NCBI GenBank assembly: GCA_947307055.1 | Contig: CAMZHX010000004.1 | Coordinates: forward strand, 1 to 64,000 | Reading direction: 5' to 3' | Length of the DNA stretch: 64,000 bases | From: an uncultured Selenomonadales bacterium | Lineage (GTDB): Bacteria > Bacillota > Negativicutes > Selenomonadales > Selenomonadaceae | In this document: piece by piece, positions 34,666 to 39,997 of the stretch | Position numbering within the stretch: the first letter of the stretch is position 1 | Layout of the letters: the number at the start of each line of letters is the position of its first letter | Translations under genes and position numbers: made by a program | Notes under the pieces: generated by a model | The model's database searches: none | What the model was told of the DNA's origin: nothing | Seen by the model: only the letters and a program-made list of their open reading frames with translations

Positions 34666-34690
34666 GCCCCGTCATGGGGCTAAATTTTTT
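34666..34690. terminator. Bidirectional terminator between the aminotransferase gene and the HpPgdA-like gene
   Basis: GCCCC-GTCAT-GGGGC with TAAATTTTTT on the right and AAAAAAATG on the left (a T run for the minus strand). Confidence 0.87.
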
Positions 34691-34749
34691 AAGGGGATAC
34701 AGGGTGGTTAATATGGATTCAGGATGGAGTTAATGTGGTTGTGGTGAGC

Positions 34750-35634
34750 TTATTTATTTTTCGGGAAGCGTTTGATGAACTCGTCAGCCATTTCGTTGAG
34801 AGTGCACCAGCGGACGCCCTCGAATTTATTGATGTGGTCGATTAGTTTTTGATGACAGCCTAAGCATTTAATTCTGCCGGAAACGTCAGGGTGAATAGTC
34901 ATTGGGAAGACGGCGAAGTCGTAATTTTCATACACGTAATCGAATGAATCAGCCCACATATCGAAAATATCGTGCGGATTGTAGAAGCCGAAGCTATTGG
35001 GCGATTTTTTCATGAACATAAGCGGCGGAATGTCATCTAAATCCCAGTTTGCAGGAATTTCGACAAGGTCAGTCTCCTCGCCGCGAATCAAAGGTTTCAT
35101 CCACGTTGACGCGGGTTTAGAGTAATCGATTTTGCTCCAAGTGTCGCCAATTCGGACGTAATAGGGCATGCAATCGTGGTGCATGAGCGAATGGTCGTAT
35201 TTAATGCCGTATTTCTTGAGGAGCTTATCAGTTACGTTGGAAAACTCCCACCAAGGCGCGACATAACCTGTGGGCGGCTTGCCGGTGAGTTCGGTGATAA
35301 GTTCGATACTTTTGACGAGAATATCTTCTTCCTGCTGAGGCGTCATAGCGAGGGGGTTTTCGTGGGAATAGCCGTGCGCGCCGATTTCGTGCCCGTCTGC
35401 GACAATCATTTTCATTTGTTCGGGGAAAGTCTCGATTGAGTGGCCAGGCGCGAACCAGGTAACTTTGATATTATTTTTCTTGAAGAGTTTGAGCAAGCGG
35501 GGAATGCCAACTTCACCGGCGAAAAGACCGCGAGAAATATCATCGGGGGAATCTTCGCCGCCGTAGGAGCCGAGCCAACCCGCGACAGCGTCAATATCGA
35601 CGCCGTAGCCGACCAAAATTTCTTTCTTAGCCAT
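34750..35634 (-). CDS. NodB-fold polysaccharide deacetylase/imidase-family hydrolase (HpPgdA-like)
   Basis: 294 residues, cytoplasmic (no signal peptide). The sequence matches, as I recall it, the Helicobacter PgdA (HP0310) type almost throughout: [63 protein letters not shown]. Metal ligands expected by homology are Asp15, His87 and His91. This subfamily differs from secreted peptidoglycan deacetylases and includes PuuE allantoinase and a Pseudomonas cyclic imidase, so ring-opening amide hydrolysis is plausible. It follows the nitrilase-family gene by 12 nt and shares its sigma-54 promoter. Confidence 0.85.
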
Positions 35635-35646
35635 GTTAATGCCCTC

Positions 35647-36444
35647 CTAAAAGTTTTTGTTATACAATTTCCAATTCAGGTCGCGGAGATAGGGTAAAGT
35701 GTTCCGCATTTTTTCAGTCGCGGACAAGTCAATTTCCGCAATAACAATCCGTTCCTCTTCGACGCCCGCCGCCGCTAAAATTGTAGCATCGGGCGCGACG
35801 ATTCTGCTCAAACCGCCGAAAATCGAATCGGAATCCTGTCCGCAACGATTACACGCGATAACGAAGGCTCCATTCTCCAAAGCGCGGCTTTTCGACGCAA
35901 TGTCCCAAGCGTAGTAGCGGGCTTTGCCGAATGCGGAAGGATAAATCAGAATATCCGCGCCCTTTTGAGTTTGAATCCGCGCAGGTTCGGGGAAGCCGAT
36001 TTCGTAGCAGATGAGAAGCCCGACGGTCGCGAAAGGCAATTTGATGACACCGATTGAATTGCCTTTGCCGAAACGGAATTTTTCGCCGTTCCAAAGGTGC
36101 ATTTTGCGCTGACGACCGATTAAACCTTCCGCGCCGACGATTATCGCCGTGTCGTAAATAATTTTATCCTCTCCCTTCTCAAGAATGGCCGCCGCGATGT
36201 AGACGTTAAATTTTTCGGCGAGCCGTTGCAAATGATTAGTAGTTTGTCCTGGAATTTCTTCGGCCAAGTCTCGGTCTTTGAGTTCGACGCGATAACCTGT
36301 GCTGAAGAGTTCGGGCAGGACGATGAGTTTTGCGCCTTGCGACGCGGCTTTGGCAATCAGGCTCGTGGCATGAGCGAGATTTTTTTCCTTATCGTAAGGA
36401 GTGCAGTCCATTTGAACGGACGCTGCGATAAATTTGTTCGCCAT
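35647..36444 (-). CDS. Nitrilase-superfamily amidase (carbon-nitrogen hydrolase)
   Basis: 265 residues from ATG 36444 (AGAGGCG upstream; the frame to 36477 is rejected). The catalytic triad is visible: Glu45 in LPELFSTGY, Lys114 in RKMHLW and Cys146 in LLICYEIGFPEPAR. Members hydrolyse C-N bonds of omega-amides, carbamoyl compounds or amides. First gene after a near-perfect sigma-54 promoter; the HpPgdA-like hydrolase follows. Together they look like a two-step ring-opening and amide-hydrolysis pathway releasing ammonia. Exact substrate unknown. Confidence 0.87.
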   Translation of the reverse strand: MANKFIAASVQMDCTPYDKEKNLAHATSLIAKAASQGAKLIVLPELFSTGYRVELKDRDLAEEIPGQTTNHLQRLAEKFNVYIAAAILEKGEDKIIYDTAIIVGAEGLIGRQRKMHLWNGEKFRFGKGNSIGVIKLPFATVGLLICYEIGFPEPARIQTQKGADILIYPSAFGKARYYAWDIASKSRALENGAFVIACNRCGQDSDSIFGGLSRIVAPDATILAAAGVEEERIVIAEIDLSATEKMRNTLPYLRDLNWKLYNKNF

Positions 36445-36485
36445 TTGATTCGCCTCTTTTCCTTTATGCCTTCGCACTTATAAAA

Positions 36486-36502
36486 AGCAAATCGCGTGCC
36501 AA
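36486..36502 (-). promoter_or_regulatory. Sigma-54 promoter of the amidase-deacetylase operon
   Basis: On the minus strand TTGGCACGCGATTTGCT: the -24 GG and -12 GC are exactly 10 nt apart, matching TTGGCAC-N4-TTGC. Predicted transcription start near 36475, about 30 nt before the amidase start. Confidence 0.88.
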
Positions 36503-36510
36503 GTGTGGTT

Positions 36511-36672
36511 TAAGGGGAAAGGGGAATGGGAAAAGGGAAAAGTATTTTAAACTTTTTCCTACTTCTCCCTTTTCCCTTCTCCCTAAATTAAGGGGAAAGG
36601 GAAACGGGAAATGGGAAAAGTGTTTTAAACTTTTTCCTACTTCTCCCTTTTCCCATCTCCCTTCTCCCTTTT
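36511..36672. repeat. Two type A heptamer blocks between the sigma-54 activator gene and the amidase promoter
   Basis: Two tandem copies, each a GGGAAAN arm, an AGTNTTTTAAACTTTTTCC centre and a CCCTTTT/CCCTTCT arm. They lie just upstream of the -24/-12 promoter, where activator sites would normally be. Confidence 0.82.
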
Positions 36673-36711
36673 TATGCGCAACGCCATATCCGATTATGCG
36701 ACGCCGAATAA

Positions 36712-38394
36712 TTATTTCTTGCTGAGCTTGCGGCTGACCGTGCTTTGATTGACGCCGAGAACTTCAGCTATTGCGGTCGTAGTTTTGTACTTCTTCCGCG
36801 CCATAGCCAAAAGTTTTTCCTCCAAAATTCTCTGCGCGTCTTTGAGCGGAATAATTTCGCTGACGTGAATGACTTCGCCGCGTTCTTTGGCGATGACTTC
36901 GGGCAGGCTCTCAACCTCGATTAGCGATTGCGGCGACAGGACAACCATACGCTCGACGGCGTGTTGAAGTTCGCGGACATTGCCGTCCCAAGAGTAGCGG
37001 AAAAATGCGTCCATAACTTCAGGCGAAAATTTGCAGTCGAGATTGTACTTGCGATTATATTTCTCCAGAAACGCCAGCGATAGCGGCAAAATATCATCGC
37101 GTCTTTCGCGCAATGGCGGAATGCAAATTTGCACGACGTTTAGCCGGTAGTAAAGATCTTTTCGGAAATTGCCGCGCTCAATCTCCTCCAAAAGATTTTT
37201 ATTCGTCGCCGCGATGATTCTAACGTCAAGTTGTTTAGTCTTAGTGCCGCCGACGCGCATAAATTCTTTTTCCTGCAAGACGCGCAAGAACTTTGCTTGC
37301 ATGTTGATTGGGATTTCGCTAATCTCGTCGAGGAAAAGCGTCCCATGATTCGCCAGCTCGAAAAGTCCGGGCTTGCCATTACGCTCGGCACCCGTGAAAG
37401 CTCCGCGCTCATAGCCGAAAAGTTCCGATTCAAAAAGCGTCGGCGGTATCGCGCTGCAATTTATTTTTATGTAAGGCTTATCTGCGCGGCGGCTCTTAGT
37501 CGCGATTAGGTTCGCTAAAACTTCCTTGCCAACGCCCGATTCGCCCGTTATCAAAACGGCAACGTCGGTTTCGCTAACTTTCATAGCGCGTTCAAAAACT
37601 TTTTGCATTTCGGGACTTGCCGCGATGAACGAAGAATTTTCCTTTGCCATGCGACTTAGCGCGAGTTCGCGTTTGTAGCCGTCGAGCAAAAGCCGCGTGT
37701 CTTCCAATTCTTTTGACAAGCCGCTTTCGTTCGGGATTATGCGCGAAGTATTTATGACGCGAATAATTTTGCCCGCCTCGTTTTGAATGGGCGTGCCCAT
37801 GACCAAAAGTTTTTTACCGGTCGCGGTCGTCTGAATCGCTTGCACGCGGCGTTTACTTTCCAAAACCATGCGCGTTATCGACGGATAATAAATTTTCTCG
37901 CGCTCCAAGTCGTAAACGCTCTTACCGACAAGAAATTTCGCGTCGACGCCCCAAATAGAATTCGCCGCTGAACTGACTTCCAAAGTTATGCCGTCGCCGT
38001 CTGAAGCGTAAATCACGTCCCAATTAGTTTCAAAAAGTTTGTGAATATCTTCGGCGATGCTGCTGTAGTTTAACTCCATGTAGCCGCCCGACCCCGCGCC
38101 GTAATTGTGAAATCTCATCTCCAACGCGCCTTTTATGCCGCGCTCGGAAAAAATATTGCTCAAAACGACCAAGTCATCATTCTCGCGGAAAATCAATTTA
38201 GTTTCGGTCGAATAGCTCAAGGCGTTGACGAGCTGTTGAGAGTTGGAAAATTTCCTGACGTCCGCGCCCAAAATTTTATCGGGCGACACCCCTTTAGCCT
38301 CGCAGTATTCGCGATTCGCTTTGATAATTTTGCCCGCCTTGTCGATTACGACCAATTCGCAAGGCAATGCATCCATCAATATTTGCTCCGTCAT
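36712..38394 (-). CDS. Sigma-54-dependent transcriptional activator (PAS-PAS-AAA+-HTH)
   Basis: 560 residues. Two PAS-like sensor domains (about 1-100 and 110-220), then an AAA+ domain with Walker A GESGVGKE (284-291), the sigma-54 contact loop GAFTGA (331-336), Walker B GTLFLDEI (351-358) and the RDLYYRLNV sensor region, then a C-terminal TyrR-like helix-turn-helix (KTTTAIAEVLGVNQSTVSRK, about 538-557). No receiver domain, so it senses a ligand or redox state directly. It lies between the DUF1097 gene and the amidase operon; both have sigma-54 promoters, so it very likely activates them. Confidence 0.93.
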   Translation of the reverse strand: MTEQILMDALPCELVVIDKAGKIIKANREYCEAKGVSPDKILGADVRKFSNSQQLVNALSYSTETKLIFRENDDLVVLSNIFSERGIKGALEMRFHNYGAGSGGYMELNYSSIAEDIHKLFETNWDVIYASDGDGITLEVSSAANSIWGVDAKFLVGKSVYDLEREKIYYPSITRMVLESKRRVQAIQTTATGKKLLVMGTPIQNEAGKIIRVINTSRIIPNESGLSKELEDTRLLLDGYKRELALSRMAKENSSFIAASPEMQKVFERAMKVSETDVAVLITGESGVGKEVLANLIATKSRRADKPYIKINCSAIPPTLFESELFGYERGAFTGAERNGKPGLFELANHGTLFLDEISEIPINMQAKFLRVLQEKEFMRVGGTKTKQLDVRIIAATNKNLLEEIERGNFRKDLYYRLNVVQICIPPLRERRDDILPLSLAFLEKYNRKYNLDCKFSPEVMDAFFRYSWDGNVRELQHAVERMVVLSPQSLIEVESLPEVIAKERGEVIHVSEIIPLKDAQRILEEKLLAMARKKYKTTTAIAEVLGVNQSTVSRKLSKK

Positions 38395-38421
38395 TTTTAA
38401 CCACTCCTTGTGTAAGAAATA

Positions 38422-38877
38422 TTAGGCCTCCTCACCTCTAGTCAGTAGCCGCGCAGATTTATCCGAGATGATTCCCAAAAGAATTCCGCAAGCCAAGCCG
38501 ATTGCTGTAAGTTCAGGCGAGCCGCCGAGAGCGTTGACCGCGTAGAAAGTCGCGTTGCCTATGAAAGTTCCGGGTATAAAGCTCAAAAGTTCGGCGTGCG
38601 CTTGCCAACACATTATCGCCGCGAAAATTATCGTGAAGAAATAATACGGCACGTTCGGGAACATTCCGCAAAGTTTAATCGTCAAAACGCCCCAGATAAC
38701 TCCGCTTAGATTCGAGCACAAACCGAGCCTTACGCCTTTGACGCCGCCGCCCGCCGCAAAATACGTCGCCCAACCCAGAAAGCCCGCGAAACTTATCAGC
38801 CCAAAATTATCCGCCGCGAAACACCATAAGCCCGCCAAAATTCCGACCGTCACGCCGATCGATATTAAATAAGTCAT
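38422..38877 (-). CDS. DUF1097-family membrane protein
   Basis: 151 residues from ATG 38877 (AGGAGG upstream; the frame to 38934 runs through the promoter and is rejected). Five or six hydrophobic segments, including GVTVGILAGLWCFAADNFG and FAGFLGWATYFAAGGGVKG, and a glycine-rich pattern typical of DUF1097 (YcdZ-like) inner-membrane proteins of unknown transport role. It begins right after a sigma-54 promoter and is followed 27 nt later by the activator, so the activator may be autoregulated. It could be the importer or channel for the substrate of the cluster. Confidence 0.78.
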   Translation of the reverse strand: MTYLISIGVTVGILAGLWCFAADNFGLISFAGFLGWATYFAAGGGVKGVRLGLCSNLSGVIWGVLTIKLCGMFPNVPYYFFTIIFAAIMCWQAHAELLSFIPGTFIGNATFYAVNALGGSPELTAIGLACGILLGIISDKSARLLTRGEEA

Positions 38878-38903
38878 AGTTATCGCCTCCTGCCCTTTTA
38901 AAA

Positions 38904-38920
38904 AGCAAGTCGCGTGCCAA
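38904..38920 (-). promoter_or_regulatory. Sigma-54 promoter of the DUF1097-activator unit
   Basis: On the minus strand TTGGCACGCGACTTGCT, GG and GC exactly 10 nt apart; nearly identical to the promoter at 36486-36502 (one base different). Confidence 0.88.
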
Positions 38921-38969: not shown

Positions 38970-39002
38970 ATCCGTAGCAAAAATTCCAGAGGAGTGAGCA
39001 CT

Positions 39003-39626
39003 ATGAATTTGAAGGAAGCATTCCAAGCACAAAATAAAATTGAGCGGCTTTTTGACTTCGTGTCGGGCTACCTCGATGACGAAAAAAATTTAATCAGCAC
39101 GACCGAAAAACATCTGCGCTCAAAGGCGGCGGAAGGTCAGCAGGACGAGAAAATTGATATCGTCGTCGACAACAAATTTCCGCCCGATAAGGTTATCGAT
39201 TTTATGTTGATGTTAATTGACGAGCGCGAGAAATTAGCGAAGGCGATTCACAACGCGAAAGCCTCTATGAAATTCGATTTGGATAGCGCGGTCGACGTGA
39301 ATAAAAAACGCCACTCCGCCGCCGAAACGTTTCGCCAACTCCGCAATTTCAAAAGTTCGAGCTTGCTTGATAAAAATGCGGGCGTCGGCTACGTCTTCAA
39401 CAAGGAAGGCAATCAGACAACTTATCGCTACGACATCGAGCGCGTTAAAACTATCGACTACGACCGCAACCGCGTCCGCGAGCTGATTAAAAAAATTCAG
39501 AAGGAAGCTAACAAAGTTTCAAACGAGATTGACGCCGCGCTTATCACGACGACCGTTAAATATAAATTGCCCTTCGACATGAACGCCAGCAATCTCGAAA
39601 TCATTGAAGAATTCGTAAGCAAGTAA
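39003..39626 (+). CDS. Hypothetical helical protein
   Basis: 207 residues from ATG 39003 (AGAGGAG 8 nt upstream). Highly charged and mostly helical: NLKEAFQAQNKIERLFDFVSGYL at the start, then long heptad-like stretches (ERVKTIDYDRNRVRELIKKI and QKEANKVSNEIDAAL). No signal peptide or membrane segment. Not recognised; it could be a cytoplasmic structural or phage-defence-like protein, but nothing specific supports that. It has its own promoter and is followed by the CATTACG-bounded element. Confidence 0.7.
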   Translation: MNLKEAFQAQNKIERLFDFVSGYLDDEKNLISTTEKHLRSKAAEGQQDEKIDIVVDNKFPPDKVIDFMLMLIDEREKLAKAIHNAKASMKFDLDSAVDVNKKRHSAAETFRQLRNFKSSSLLDKNAGVGYVFNKEGNQTTYRYDIERVKTIDYDRNRVRELIKKIQKEANKVSNEIDAALITTTVKYKLPFDMNASNLEIIEEFVSK

Positions 39627-39635
39627 GATTAACTA

Positions 39636-39664
39636 CGCATTGCGCATTACGCATTACGCATTGA
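39636..39664. repeat. CATTACG heptamer repeat (type C), left arm
   Basis: CGCATTGCGCATTACGCATTACGCATTG, four 7-mers. Inverted partner at 39937-39966. Confidence 0.85.
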
Positions 39665-39936
39665 TTAGGCGGCGTCGGTTCAGGTGCAGATGAACTGAGA
39701 GGCTGCACATTTTGAAAACCGCTTTCTGCAAAAGAGCGACCATTAAGACGGGTCGCAGAATGTCACCGCATTTTCGACCGGGTAAATATCGTTAACACTA
39801 ATACTCCAGTTCGACAATCGCAAAGTCTTCAACTCGTCAACGCGCCCTTTCAAAAAATCTAAAACACACCTCCACAGGGAATTGAAAAATCCTTGTTCGT
39901 TGAGTCGCCTTCGGGCGGCGAATAGACAAAGCCTTT
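39665..39936 (+). other. Gene-free structured element bounded by inverted type C repeats
   Basis: No convincing gene lies between 39627 and 39997. Inside are GTTCA (39678-39682) pairing TGAAC (39691-39695), whose loop carries GTGCAG (39684-39689) that can pair with CTGCAC (39703-39708), an H-type pseudoknot; a GCGACC/GGTCGC stem (39736-39756) extended by TTCT/AGAA; and C-UUCG-G hairpin CGCCTTCGGGCG (39906-39917). The flanking repeats could form a closing stem. It could be an RNA gene or a small non-autonomous element; it does not match an RNA family I recognise. Confidence 0.35.
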
Positions 39937-39966
39937 TTAATGCGTAATGCGTAGTGCGTGATGCGG
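39937..39966. repeat. CATTACG heptamer repeat (type C), right arm, inverted
   Basis: TTAATGCGTAATGCGTAGTGCGTGATGCGG, complementary to the left arm. Confidence 0.85.
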
Positions 39967-39997
39967 AATAAAATTTTTAAAGACAGGAAGTGATTTC

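Follow-up and report, generated by a model that had tools for sequence, protein, structure and literature searches.

The locus described here occupies positions 34,750 to 38,920 of a 64,000-nucleotide stretch (hereafter the window) from an uncultured gut bacterium of the Selenomonadales, family Selenomonadaceae (assembly GCA_947307055.1, contig CAMZHX010000004.1). It consists of four genes on the minus strand, one of them encoding an activator of sigma-54, together with two promoters of the -24/-12 type and two sets of repeats. Listed from the high-numbered end, its features are:

38904..38920, minus strand: -24/-12 promoter before the DUF1097 and activator genes (pattern search; conserved before DUF1097 in relatives)
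38422..38877, minus strand: DUF1097 membrane protein (PF06496, E 2.8e-29)
36712..38394, minus strand: PAS-AAA+ sigma-54 activator, the sole one found in the assembly (PF00158, E 2.1e-70; GAFTGA, Walker A)
36673..36710, minus strand: putative upstream activator sequence, two 16-bp inverted repeats (tandem motif match, shuffles)
36510..36662, no strand given: two copies of a 75-nt foldback repeat (similarity of the copies, folding z)
36486..36502, minus strand: -24/-12 promoter before the nitrilase-deacetylase pair (pattern search; conserved before orthologues)
35647..36444, minus strand: nitrilase-superfamily amidase, a proposed half-amidase (PF00795, E 4.8e-64)
34750..35634, minus strand: polysaccharide-deacetylase-fold hydrolase of the HpPgdA / cyclic imide hydrolase family (PDB 3qbu/4ly4, E 7e-157)

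The original prediction had named these genes from the window alone, and its descriptions were borne out by Pfam, which assigned CN_hydrolase, Polysacc_deac_1, Sigma54_activat (with PAS) and DUF1097 domains to the four products; the run on the nitrilase, whose PF00795 match places it in the CN hydrolase superfamily, covered 35647-36441, without the first methionine. The intact GAFTGA loop and the PAS region claimed for the activator were likewise confirmed by sequence and Pfam: its AAA+ domain carries a Walker A motif, its sensor region has a PAS domain at residues 116-214 and a weaker PAS_4 match at 8-49, and its C-terminal HTH_50 match is weak (E 3e-4; 20.8 bits, cut-off 27). PrdR (NF041552) is its best NCBIfam match, and we do not file it as PrdR because the score of 403 bits falls below the 795-bit equivalog cut-off; furthermore, none of the four operon genes is a proline reductase gene. 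The DUF1097 protein gave a poor AlphaFold model (mean pLDDT 52, six helices); it is a predicted membrane protein and may be a permease. Plasmid carriage of the nitrilase was rejected, as all 1264 matching plasmid records lie below 60% identity.

The promoters are the 17-mers TTGGCACGCGATTTGCT (36486-36502) and TTGGCACGCGACTTGCT (38904-38920), which, as predicted, lie on the minus strand, differ in a single base and hold GG and GC 10 nt apart. The general -24/-12 consensus is YTGGCACG-N4-TTGCW, with the same 10-nt distance between GG and GC, and on a promoter score built from this consensus (maximum 15.2) both sites reach 15.2, the next best in the window being 13.2. They stand 41 nt from the nitrilase ATG (36444) and 26 nt from the DUF1097 ATG (38877). 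On both strands of the window, perfect TGGCA-N6-TTGC occurs at these two sites only; one-mismatch forms number 15, which is chance level (17 in total found against 16.5 expected), and at up to three mismatches to the 17-mer only the two sites match (0.69 expected; two reached in 20 of 100 shuffles, a loose setting). Exact TGGCAC-N5-TTGCT is also confined to them in the whole 2,455,699-base assembly. The bare count of exact sites is not above chance, because the reversed control likewise gives two exact matches and at least one exact match is present in 24 of 60 rpoN-less genomes of the genus. What does go beyond chance is the position of the sites before genes and their conservation. The site before DUF1097 is also present in G148, G086, G165, G146, L034 and L041, and the recurrence of sites before orthologous genes in relatives upholds the predicted conservation; in L038, which has no activator match, DUF1097 has no such site in front. 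Across the genome, 21 sequences match the 17-mer with up to three mismatches, compared with 8 for the reversed control. Of the 19 weak matches other than the two sites, 18 were examined; 16 lie inside predicted open reading frames (ORFs) and two are intergenic without a GG/GC pair, so that further sigma-54 promoters were rejected for want of an intergenic GG/GC site among those 18.

A wider survey, restricted to the best 80 of at least 586 loci, 17 of them with an activator match, related these promoters to the state of the activator. L028, L029, L030 and L027 were taken as copies of G086, G165, G146 and G180, and each pair was counted once. The four genes lie together, as had been proposed, in other Selenomonadaceae and also in one Lachnospiraceae (L034) and one Synergistaceae (L041) locus. 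An intact GAFTGA loop by the operon is found at 14 loci (G000, which is the window genome, G148, G086, G165, G146, G180, G120, G019, L032, L034, L041, L042, L062 and L064), and all 14 have a -24/-12 site scoring at least 13.7, before the nitrilase in 13 and before a permease in L062, where no nitrilase was found. In contrast, five activator homologues of the same cluster type have lost GAFTGA (L050, L056, L057, L061 and L063), and at these loci nothing in front of the nitrilase or hydrolase scores above 11.5, giving 14/14 versus 0/5 and a p of 9e-5 with kinship ignored. Likely, judging from their sequences, these five have switched from sigma-54 to another mode of control. In random 350-bp windows of the fetched loci a score of 13.5 is reached in 0.8%, real sites included, and among 62 loci without an activator match whose 350-bp window was read, two reach it (L038 and L094). 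The latter, from an Alcaligenaceae metagenome-assembled genome (MAG), has CTGGCACGGGCGTTGCC at 638-654, shortly upstream of its hydrolase gene, with no activator match in the fetched stretch; this site may be controlled by another activator.

Just behind the activator gene, the putative upstream activator sequence is formed by TATTCGGCGTCGCATA and TATGGCGTTGCGCATA, two 16-bp inverted repeats whose starts are 22 bp apart. It is the best tandem match in the 64 kb (21 of 24, the next 18), and its score was reached by none of 400 shuffles of the gap. The motif, TATGCR-N4-YGCATA twice with starts 21-23 bp apart, recurs between activator and nitrilase (or permease) at all 14 GAFTGA loci, with p ranging from 0/400 shuffles up to 0.022. 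At the GAFTGA-less loci a full 12/12 single repeat is present in all five, the tandem form of L057 being non-significant (p 0.107). Between the upstream repeat and the nitrilase promoter of the window lies a purine-rich foldback repeat (36510-36662) of two 75-nt copies that are 93% alike, with a single-strand folding z of -6.0 for 36510-36670. It was probably inserted; the gap from repeat to promoter is longer here than in G148 or G086, and a search limited to the window found no further copies of the foldback core.

The original prediction had gone further, naming inverted repeats upstream of both promoters as something to look for and reading the four genes as a single ligand-controlled, autoregulated unit. 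Control by the local activator has held up well: the sites track GAFTGA, the upstream repeat is conserved before the nitrilase promoter in 14/14 gaps, rpoN is present, and no other activator was found in the assembly. Autoregulation fared less well. In six regions before DUF1097 promoters the tandem repeat was unconvincing (p 0.995, 0.028, 0.92, 0.96, 0.07 and 0.30); at six loci where no DUF1097 promoter precedes the activator, the activator has no -24/-12 site of its own (best 9.5-11.5); and neither before rpoN (five genomes) nor before PBP2 (two genomes) does any site score above 12.5. Autoregulation would thus depend on the DUF1097 promoter alone, and since the upstream repeat is unsupported there, the sequence indicates it weakly.

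How much else sigma-54 might serve in this organism can be judged from the genome. It holds one rpoN (contig C25, 414 aa, with Pfam AID, CBD and DBD domains) and one sigma-54 activator, that of the window; a candidate second activator (L023, C8:82164), the best of the weaker matches, was rejected, as by our reading its sequence is that of a Lon-type protease. Within the class, orthologues of the activator at 68-100% identity are found in 8 of 380 genomes, and candidates elsewhere in the class were rejected, the next best reaching 46%. Three genes were scored in 66 genomes of the genus: rpoN above the family cut-off, the activator (E <= 1e-25) and the hydrolase (E <= 1e-20). All three occur in one and the same set of six (G000, G148, G086, G165, G180 and G146), and the remaining 60 yielded none of them at those cut-offs (Fisher p 1.1e-8, kinship ignored). 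Two weak rpoN-profile matches below the cut-off, in G179 and as a second one in G180, were excluded from this count. Each of the six positive genomes has a single activator (PF00158 at E <= 1e-20); as no other was found, rpoN seems to be retained for the sake of this one operon. G165 has, directly behind its activator gene, an extra copy of the activator C-terminus (L146, G165:C59:5533-5784).

In G165 and G086 the block begins with PBP2 and rpoN; the remaining genes face rpoN and run from a CobW GTPase and a 115-aa protein through hydrolase, nitrilase and activator to DUF1097. Beyond these, G165 has a homologue of a 210-aa protein starting MNLKEAF and then cydA; Pfam gives this protein no match, and it lies at 38994-39626 in the window and adjoins cydA in several genomes of the genus. 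The G086 contig stops at DUF1097. In G146 and G180 rpoN shares the operon contig, 1.4-1.5 kb from the hydrolase gene, which brings the positives with rpoN beside the operon to four of six. In G000 and G148 the block is split, rpoN lying with PBP2 (on C25 and C4) and the operon with the MNLKEAF gene and cydA. PBP2, detected in 61 of the 66 genomes, serves as the reference point: we examined 30 PBP2 loci, and rpoN follows PBP2 in all five that are rpoN-positive. In 7 of the 25 rpoN-negative ones (G108, G158, G187, G131, G154, G151 and G134) the MNLKEAF gene and/or cydA lies within 1.5 kb after PBP2 on the same strand, with a small other gene in between in G154, G151 and G134; in the remaining 18 neither was found within the stretch fetched. 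The closeness of the flanking genes in these seven genomes indicates that the block is missing as a unit, and from the sequences rpoN, activator and operon form an island that is present or absent as a unit in the genus. In a PBP2 tree of 30 of the 61 genomes with a match (5/6 positives and 25 negatives), the positives fall into two groups with negatives between them, a split that suggests repeated loss. In the window itself, short repeated ATTACGCATT-like stretches, possibly a dispersed repeat, lie before cydA at 39640-39990.

Linkage of rpoN to the operon extends beyond this genus. In two Synergistaceae MAGs (L041 and L042) rpoN directly adjoins the operon in divergent orientation, and in a Lachnospiraceae MAG (L032) it is separated from the activator by 2.1 kb that include two other ORFs. 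Pfam recognises all three RpoN domains in L032 and in L042; for L041, of which a piece was analysed, it recognises CBD and DBD. No rpoN was found within the fetched stretch of L034, L038, L062, L064, G120 or G019; in G120 it lies about 20 kb from the operon. The corresponding numbers of activators (PF00158) are 1, 1 and 2 for L032, L042 and L041, and 4, 14, 31, 2 and 3 for L034, L064, L062, G120 and G019. RpoN of L032, L041 and L042 is only 30-32% identical to that of the window genome, so the cassette has not been recently co-transferred. Within the genus RpoN itself appears divergent: between G000 and G086 it is 60% identical, as against 91.5% for the PBP2 beside it, 89% for the activator and 94% for the hydrolase. 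In another pair, G120 and G019, with two and three PF00158 matches, the activator is 88.6% and RpoN 82.9% identical. Furthermore, the six RpoN of the genus cluster together, are shorter (414-440 aa versus 457-476 in four family sequences inspected) and have longer branches (root to tip 0.90-0.95 versus a median of 0.62 for 30 family sequences).

As to what the operon does, its hydrolase matches HpPgdA (HP0310), and its residues D13, D15, H87, H91, H248, W128 and W129 are invariant in seven aligned sequences, HpPgdA itself not being in the alignment. The metal and active-site residues of HpPgdA are D12, D14, H86, H90, H247, W127 and W128 (PMC3084791, available in part), an offset of one by our reading of the numbering, and by sequence the hydrolase keeps these residues of the HpPgdA / cyclic imide hydrolase family. 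The cyclic imide hydrolases of Pseudomonas putida YZ-26 and HxnM of Aspergillus nidulans have been tied to this family, with the amide hydrolase HxnN acting at the next step (PMC9304392, available in part). The window operon resembles these systems in pairing an HpPgdA-related enzyme with an amide hydrolase; it differs in having no ring-modifying enzymes, and the likeness is drawn from their published descriptions. Two-step opening of a cyclic imide, by the HpPgdA relative and then the nitrilase-family amidase, is the best fit to the predicted enzymes, and the operon probably degrades cyclic nitrogen compounds.

In the amidase translation we take PELF, RKMHL and ICYE to hold the E-K-C triad. 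In Bacillota the clusters also contain a permease, a small protein and a GTPase-like gene, the last assigned to cobW by Pfam on the G086 copy; the permease of the Aneurinibacillus cluster L062 is Pfam Transp_cyt_pur, the others being recognised by similarity of their sequence starts. At two Helicobacter loci (L036 and L106) the nitrilase and hydrolase are accompanied by the small protein and a GTPase-like gene, with no activator match, and the H. pylori genome presumably has the same order. A protein of 110-115 aa without a Pfam match (MCVLCGE...HWTDQ; L147:8219-8566, L064:4437-4775) is conserved in several lineages, where it adjoins the GTPase-like gene downstream of the hydrolase; in the window genome it is not beside the operon.

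We regard it as probable, at roughly 0.7, that the locus makes up the regulon of the sole sigma-54 activator detected in the genome and serves a cyclic-imide (or ureide) pathway, rpoN being kept for this operon. The promoters, the repeat, the single activator in the assembly, the co-occurrence, the island and the empty site can be read in the sequences themselves; binding, looping, ligand, substrate and the role of DUF1097 we infer. The PAS-AAA+ protein would bind the tandem inverted repeat just behind its own gene and loop to RNA polymerase-sigma-54 at 36486-36502. The PAS region would sense a small molecule, probably the substrate or the half-amide, whereupon the GAFTGA loop would open the nitrilase-deacetylase promoter, and the second sigma-54 promoter would drive DUF1097 plus the activator. 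The metal-dependent hydrolase would then open the cyclic-imide (or ureide) ring and the amidase would free ammonia from the half-amide, with the DUF1097 membrane protein perhaps acting as permease. More tentatively, RpoN could be a dedicated operon-specific factor, the cassette of sigma factor, activator, two promoters and pathway being gained and lost whole. The linkage would then have arisen in several gut lineages that shed almost all of their other activators, and RpoN without other clients would evolve fast while the activator stays conserved.

Several points weigh against these proposals. Exact-pattern counts alone fail to tell rpoN-positive from rpoN-negative genomes, and the repeat motif was read by eye from the same loci on which it was later tested. 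Two GAFTGA-less loci do carry a site elsewhere: that of L057 (14.2) falls within a downstream ORF, and that of L056 (13.5) lies 2-3 kb beyond the cluster. Two loci were excluded from the GAFTGA/promoter count, L040 (a PAS-only match) and L074, a paralogue of 40% identity with GAFTGA intact, about 4.4 kb past the hydrolase gene, which has no nearby site of 13.2 or above and would turn 14/14 into 14/15. Of the 66 genus genomes, only 14 meet thresholds of 90% completeness and 5% contamination, and a single one of these is positive. The trees of PBP2 and RpoN were built quickly with FastTree and rooted at the midpoint. Draft assemblies could also make an ordinary sigma-54 catabolic operon look solitary: the completeness of G000 is 88%, which leaves room for undetected activators, and most genus genomes are draft MAGs. 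We consider this quite improbable, as each of the six positives has one activator, including G086 at 94% completeness, no activator reaches E <= 1e-25 in any of the 60 rpoN-less genomes, and the island and empty-site pattern is independent of activator counts. A further possibility is that rpoN came to lie by the operon by chance and that the pattern in the genus simply follows a few clades by descent. The six positives could go back to a small number of events, the distant RpoN sequences of L032, L041 and L042 speak against recent co-transfer, and two ORFs intervene in L032. We consider this possibility unlikely in view of the split positives in the PBP2 tree and of linkage in Selenomonadaceae, Lachnospiraceae and Synergistaceae, among genomes counted only in those with one or two activators.

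The substrate invites two further alternatives. The hydrolase, with its Polysacc_deac_1 match, could be a peptidoglycan deacetylase and the amidase could act on a wall-derived amide, making this a cell-wall operon. HP0310 was first described as a peptidoglycan deacetylase, and esterase activities on acetyl esters and acetylxylan (acetylesterase, acetylxylan esterase) are reported for it (PMC3688963, available in part); deacetylase activity on crude peptidoglycan is cited for it, and gene neighbours of homologues include polyamine importers and D-Ala-D-Ala peptidases (both in the available part of PMC3084791). However, the same part of that source reports that HpPgdA was inactive in vitro towards typical polysaccharides, lacks a signal peptide and has no groove accessible to a polysaccharide, and holds that it likely binds a small molecule. 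Since cyclic imide hydrolases belong to the same family (PMC9304392), and the neighbours in the loci examined are amidase, permease and CobW-type GTPase, we find a cell-wall role improbable. A ureide of the hydantoin, dihydrouracil or allantoin type, with the amidase as an N-carbamoyl hydrolase, is somewhat unlikely. PDB relatives of the nitrilase include, besides nitrilase and Nit2, entries for beta-ureidopropionase and for N-carbamoylputrescine amidohydrolase; the hydrolase is distantly related to PuuE allantoinase, and the permease of L062 is of the Transp_cyt_pur family. Yet the nearest characterised enzymes named in the available part of PMC9304392 are imidases, allantoin was among the substrates tried on HP0310 (PMC3084791), and identity with allantoinase PuuE (TIGR03212, 74 of 425 bits) and with N-carbamoylputrescine amidase AguB (TIGR03381, 132 of 410 bits) was rejected, both scores lying far under the equivalog cut-offs.

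The locus with its sole detected activator is thus a real, well-conserved sigma-54 unit, and it appears to be the whole sigma-54 regulon of its genome, present or absent together with rpoN, which makes it more notable than the window alone reveals. Sigma-54 and its activators co-occur almost perfectly across genomes, and single-activator systems are known from Lactobacillus plantarum, Chlamydia and Borrelia (PMC3162934, available in part). Our case is like these in having one activator for sigma-54. Its cassette arrangement differs from what the available part of that source describes: rpoN, activator and target lie in one island in four of six genomes, 60 of the 66 genus genomes lack rpoN, activator and hydrolase alike, and the target looks like nitrogen-ring catabolism. 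In the open-access literature, covered mostly at the level of titles and abstract openings, we recognised no description of this operon or of rpoN linked to it, and a search of PMC6615313 by terms gave nothing on nitrilase, deacetylase, DUF1097, Negativicutes or a single enhancer-binding protein. The locus offers a minimal natural sigma-54 system of one sigma factor, one activator and two promoters, together with close relatives that lack everything and distant ones in which GAFTGA is lost and the repeat kept. With such relatives, the coupling of activator, sigma factor and promoter, and the shedding of an alternative sigma factor by a genome, become directly testable. It also gives the disputed PgdA family, whose member HP0310 is described in print as a peptidoglycan deacetylase, a place beside an amidase in a sigma-54 operon, apparently in a nitrogen pathway acting on small molecules.

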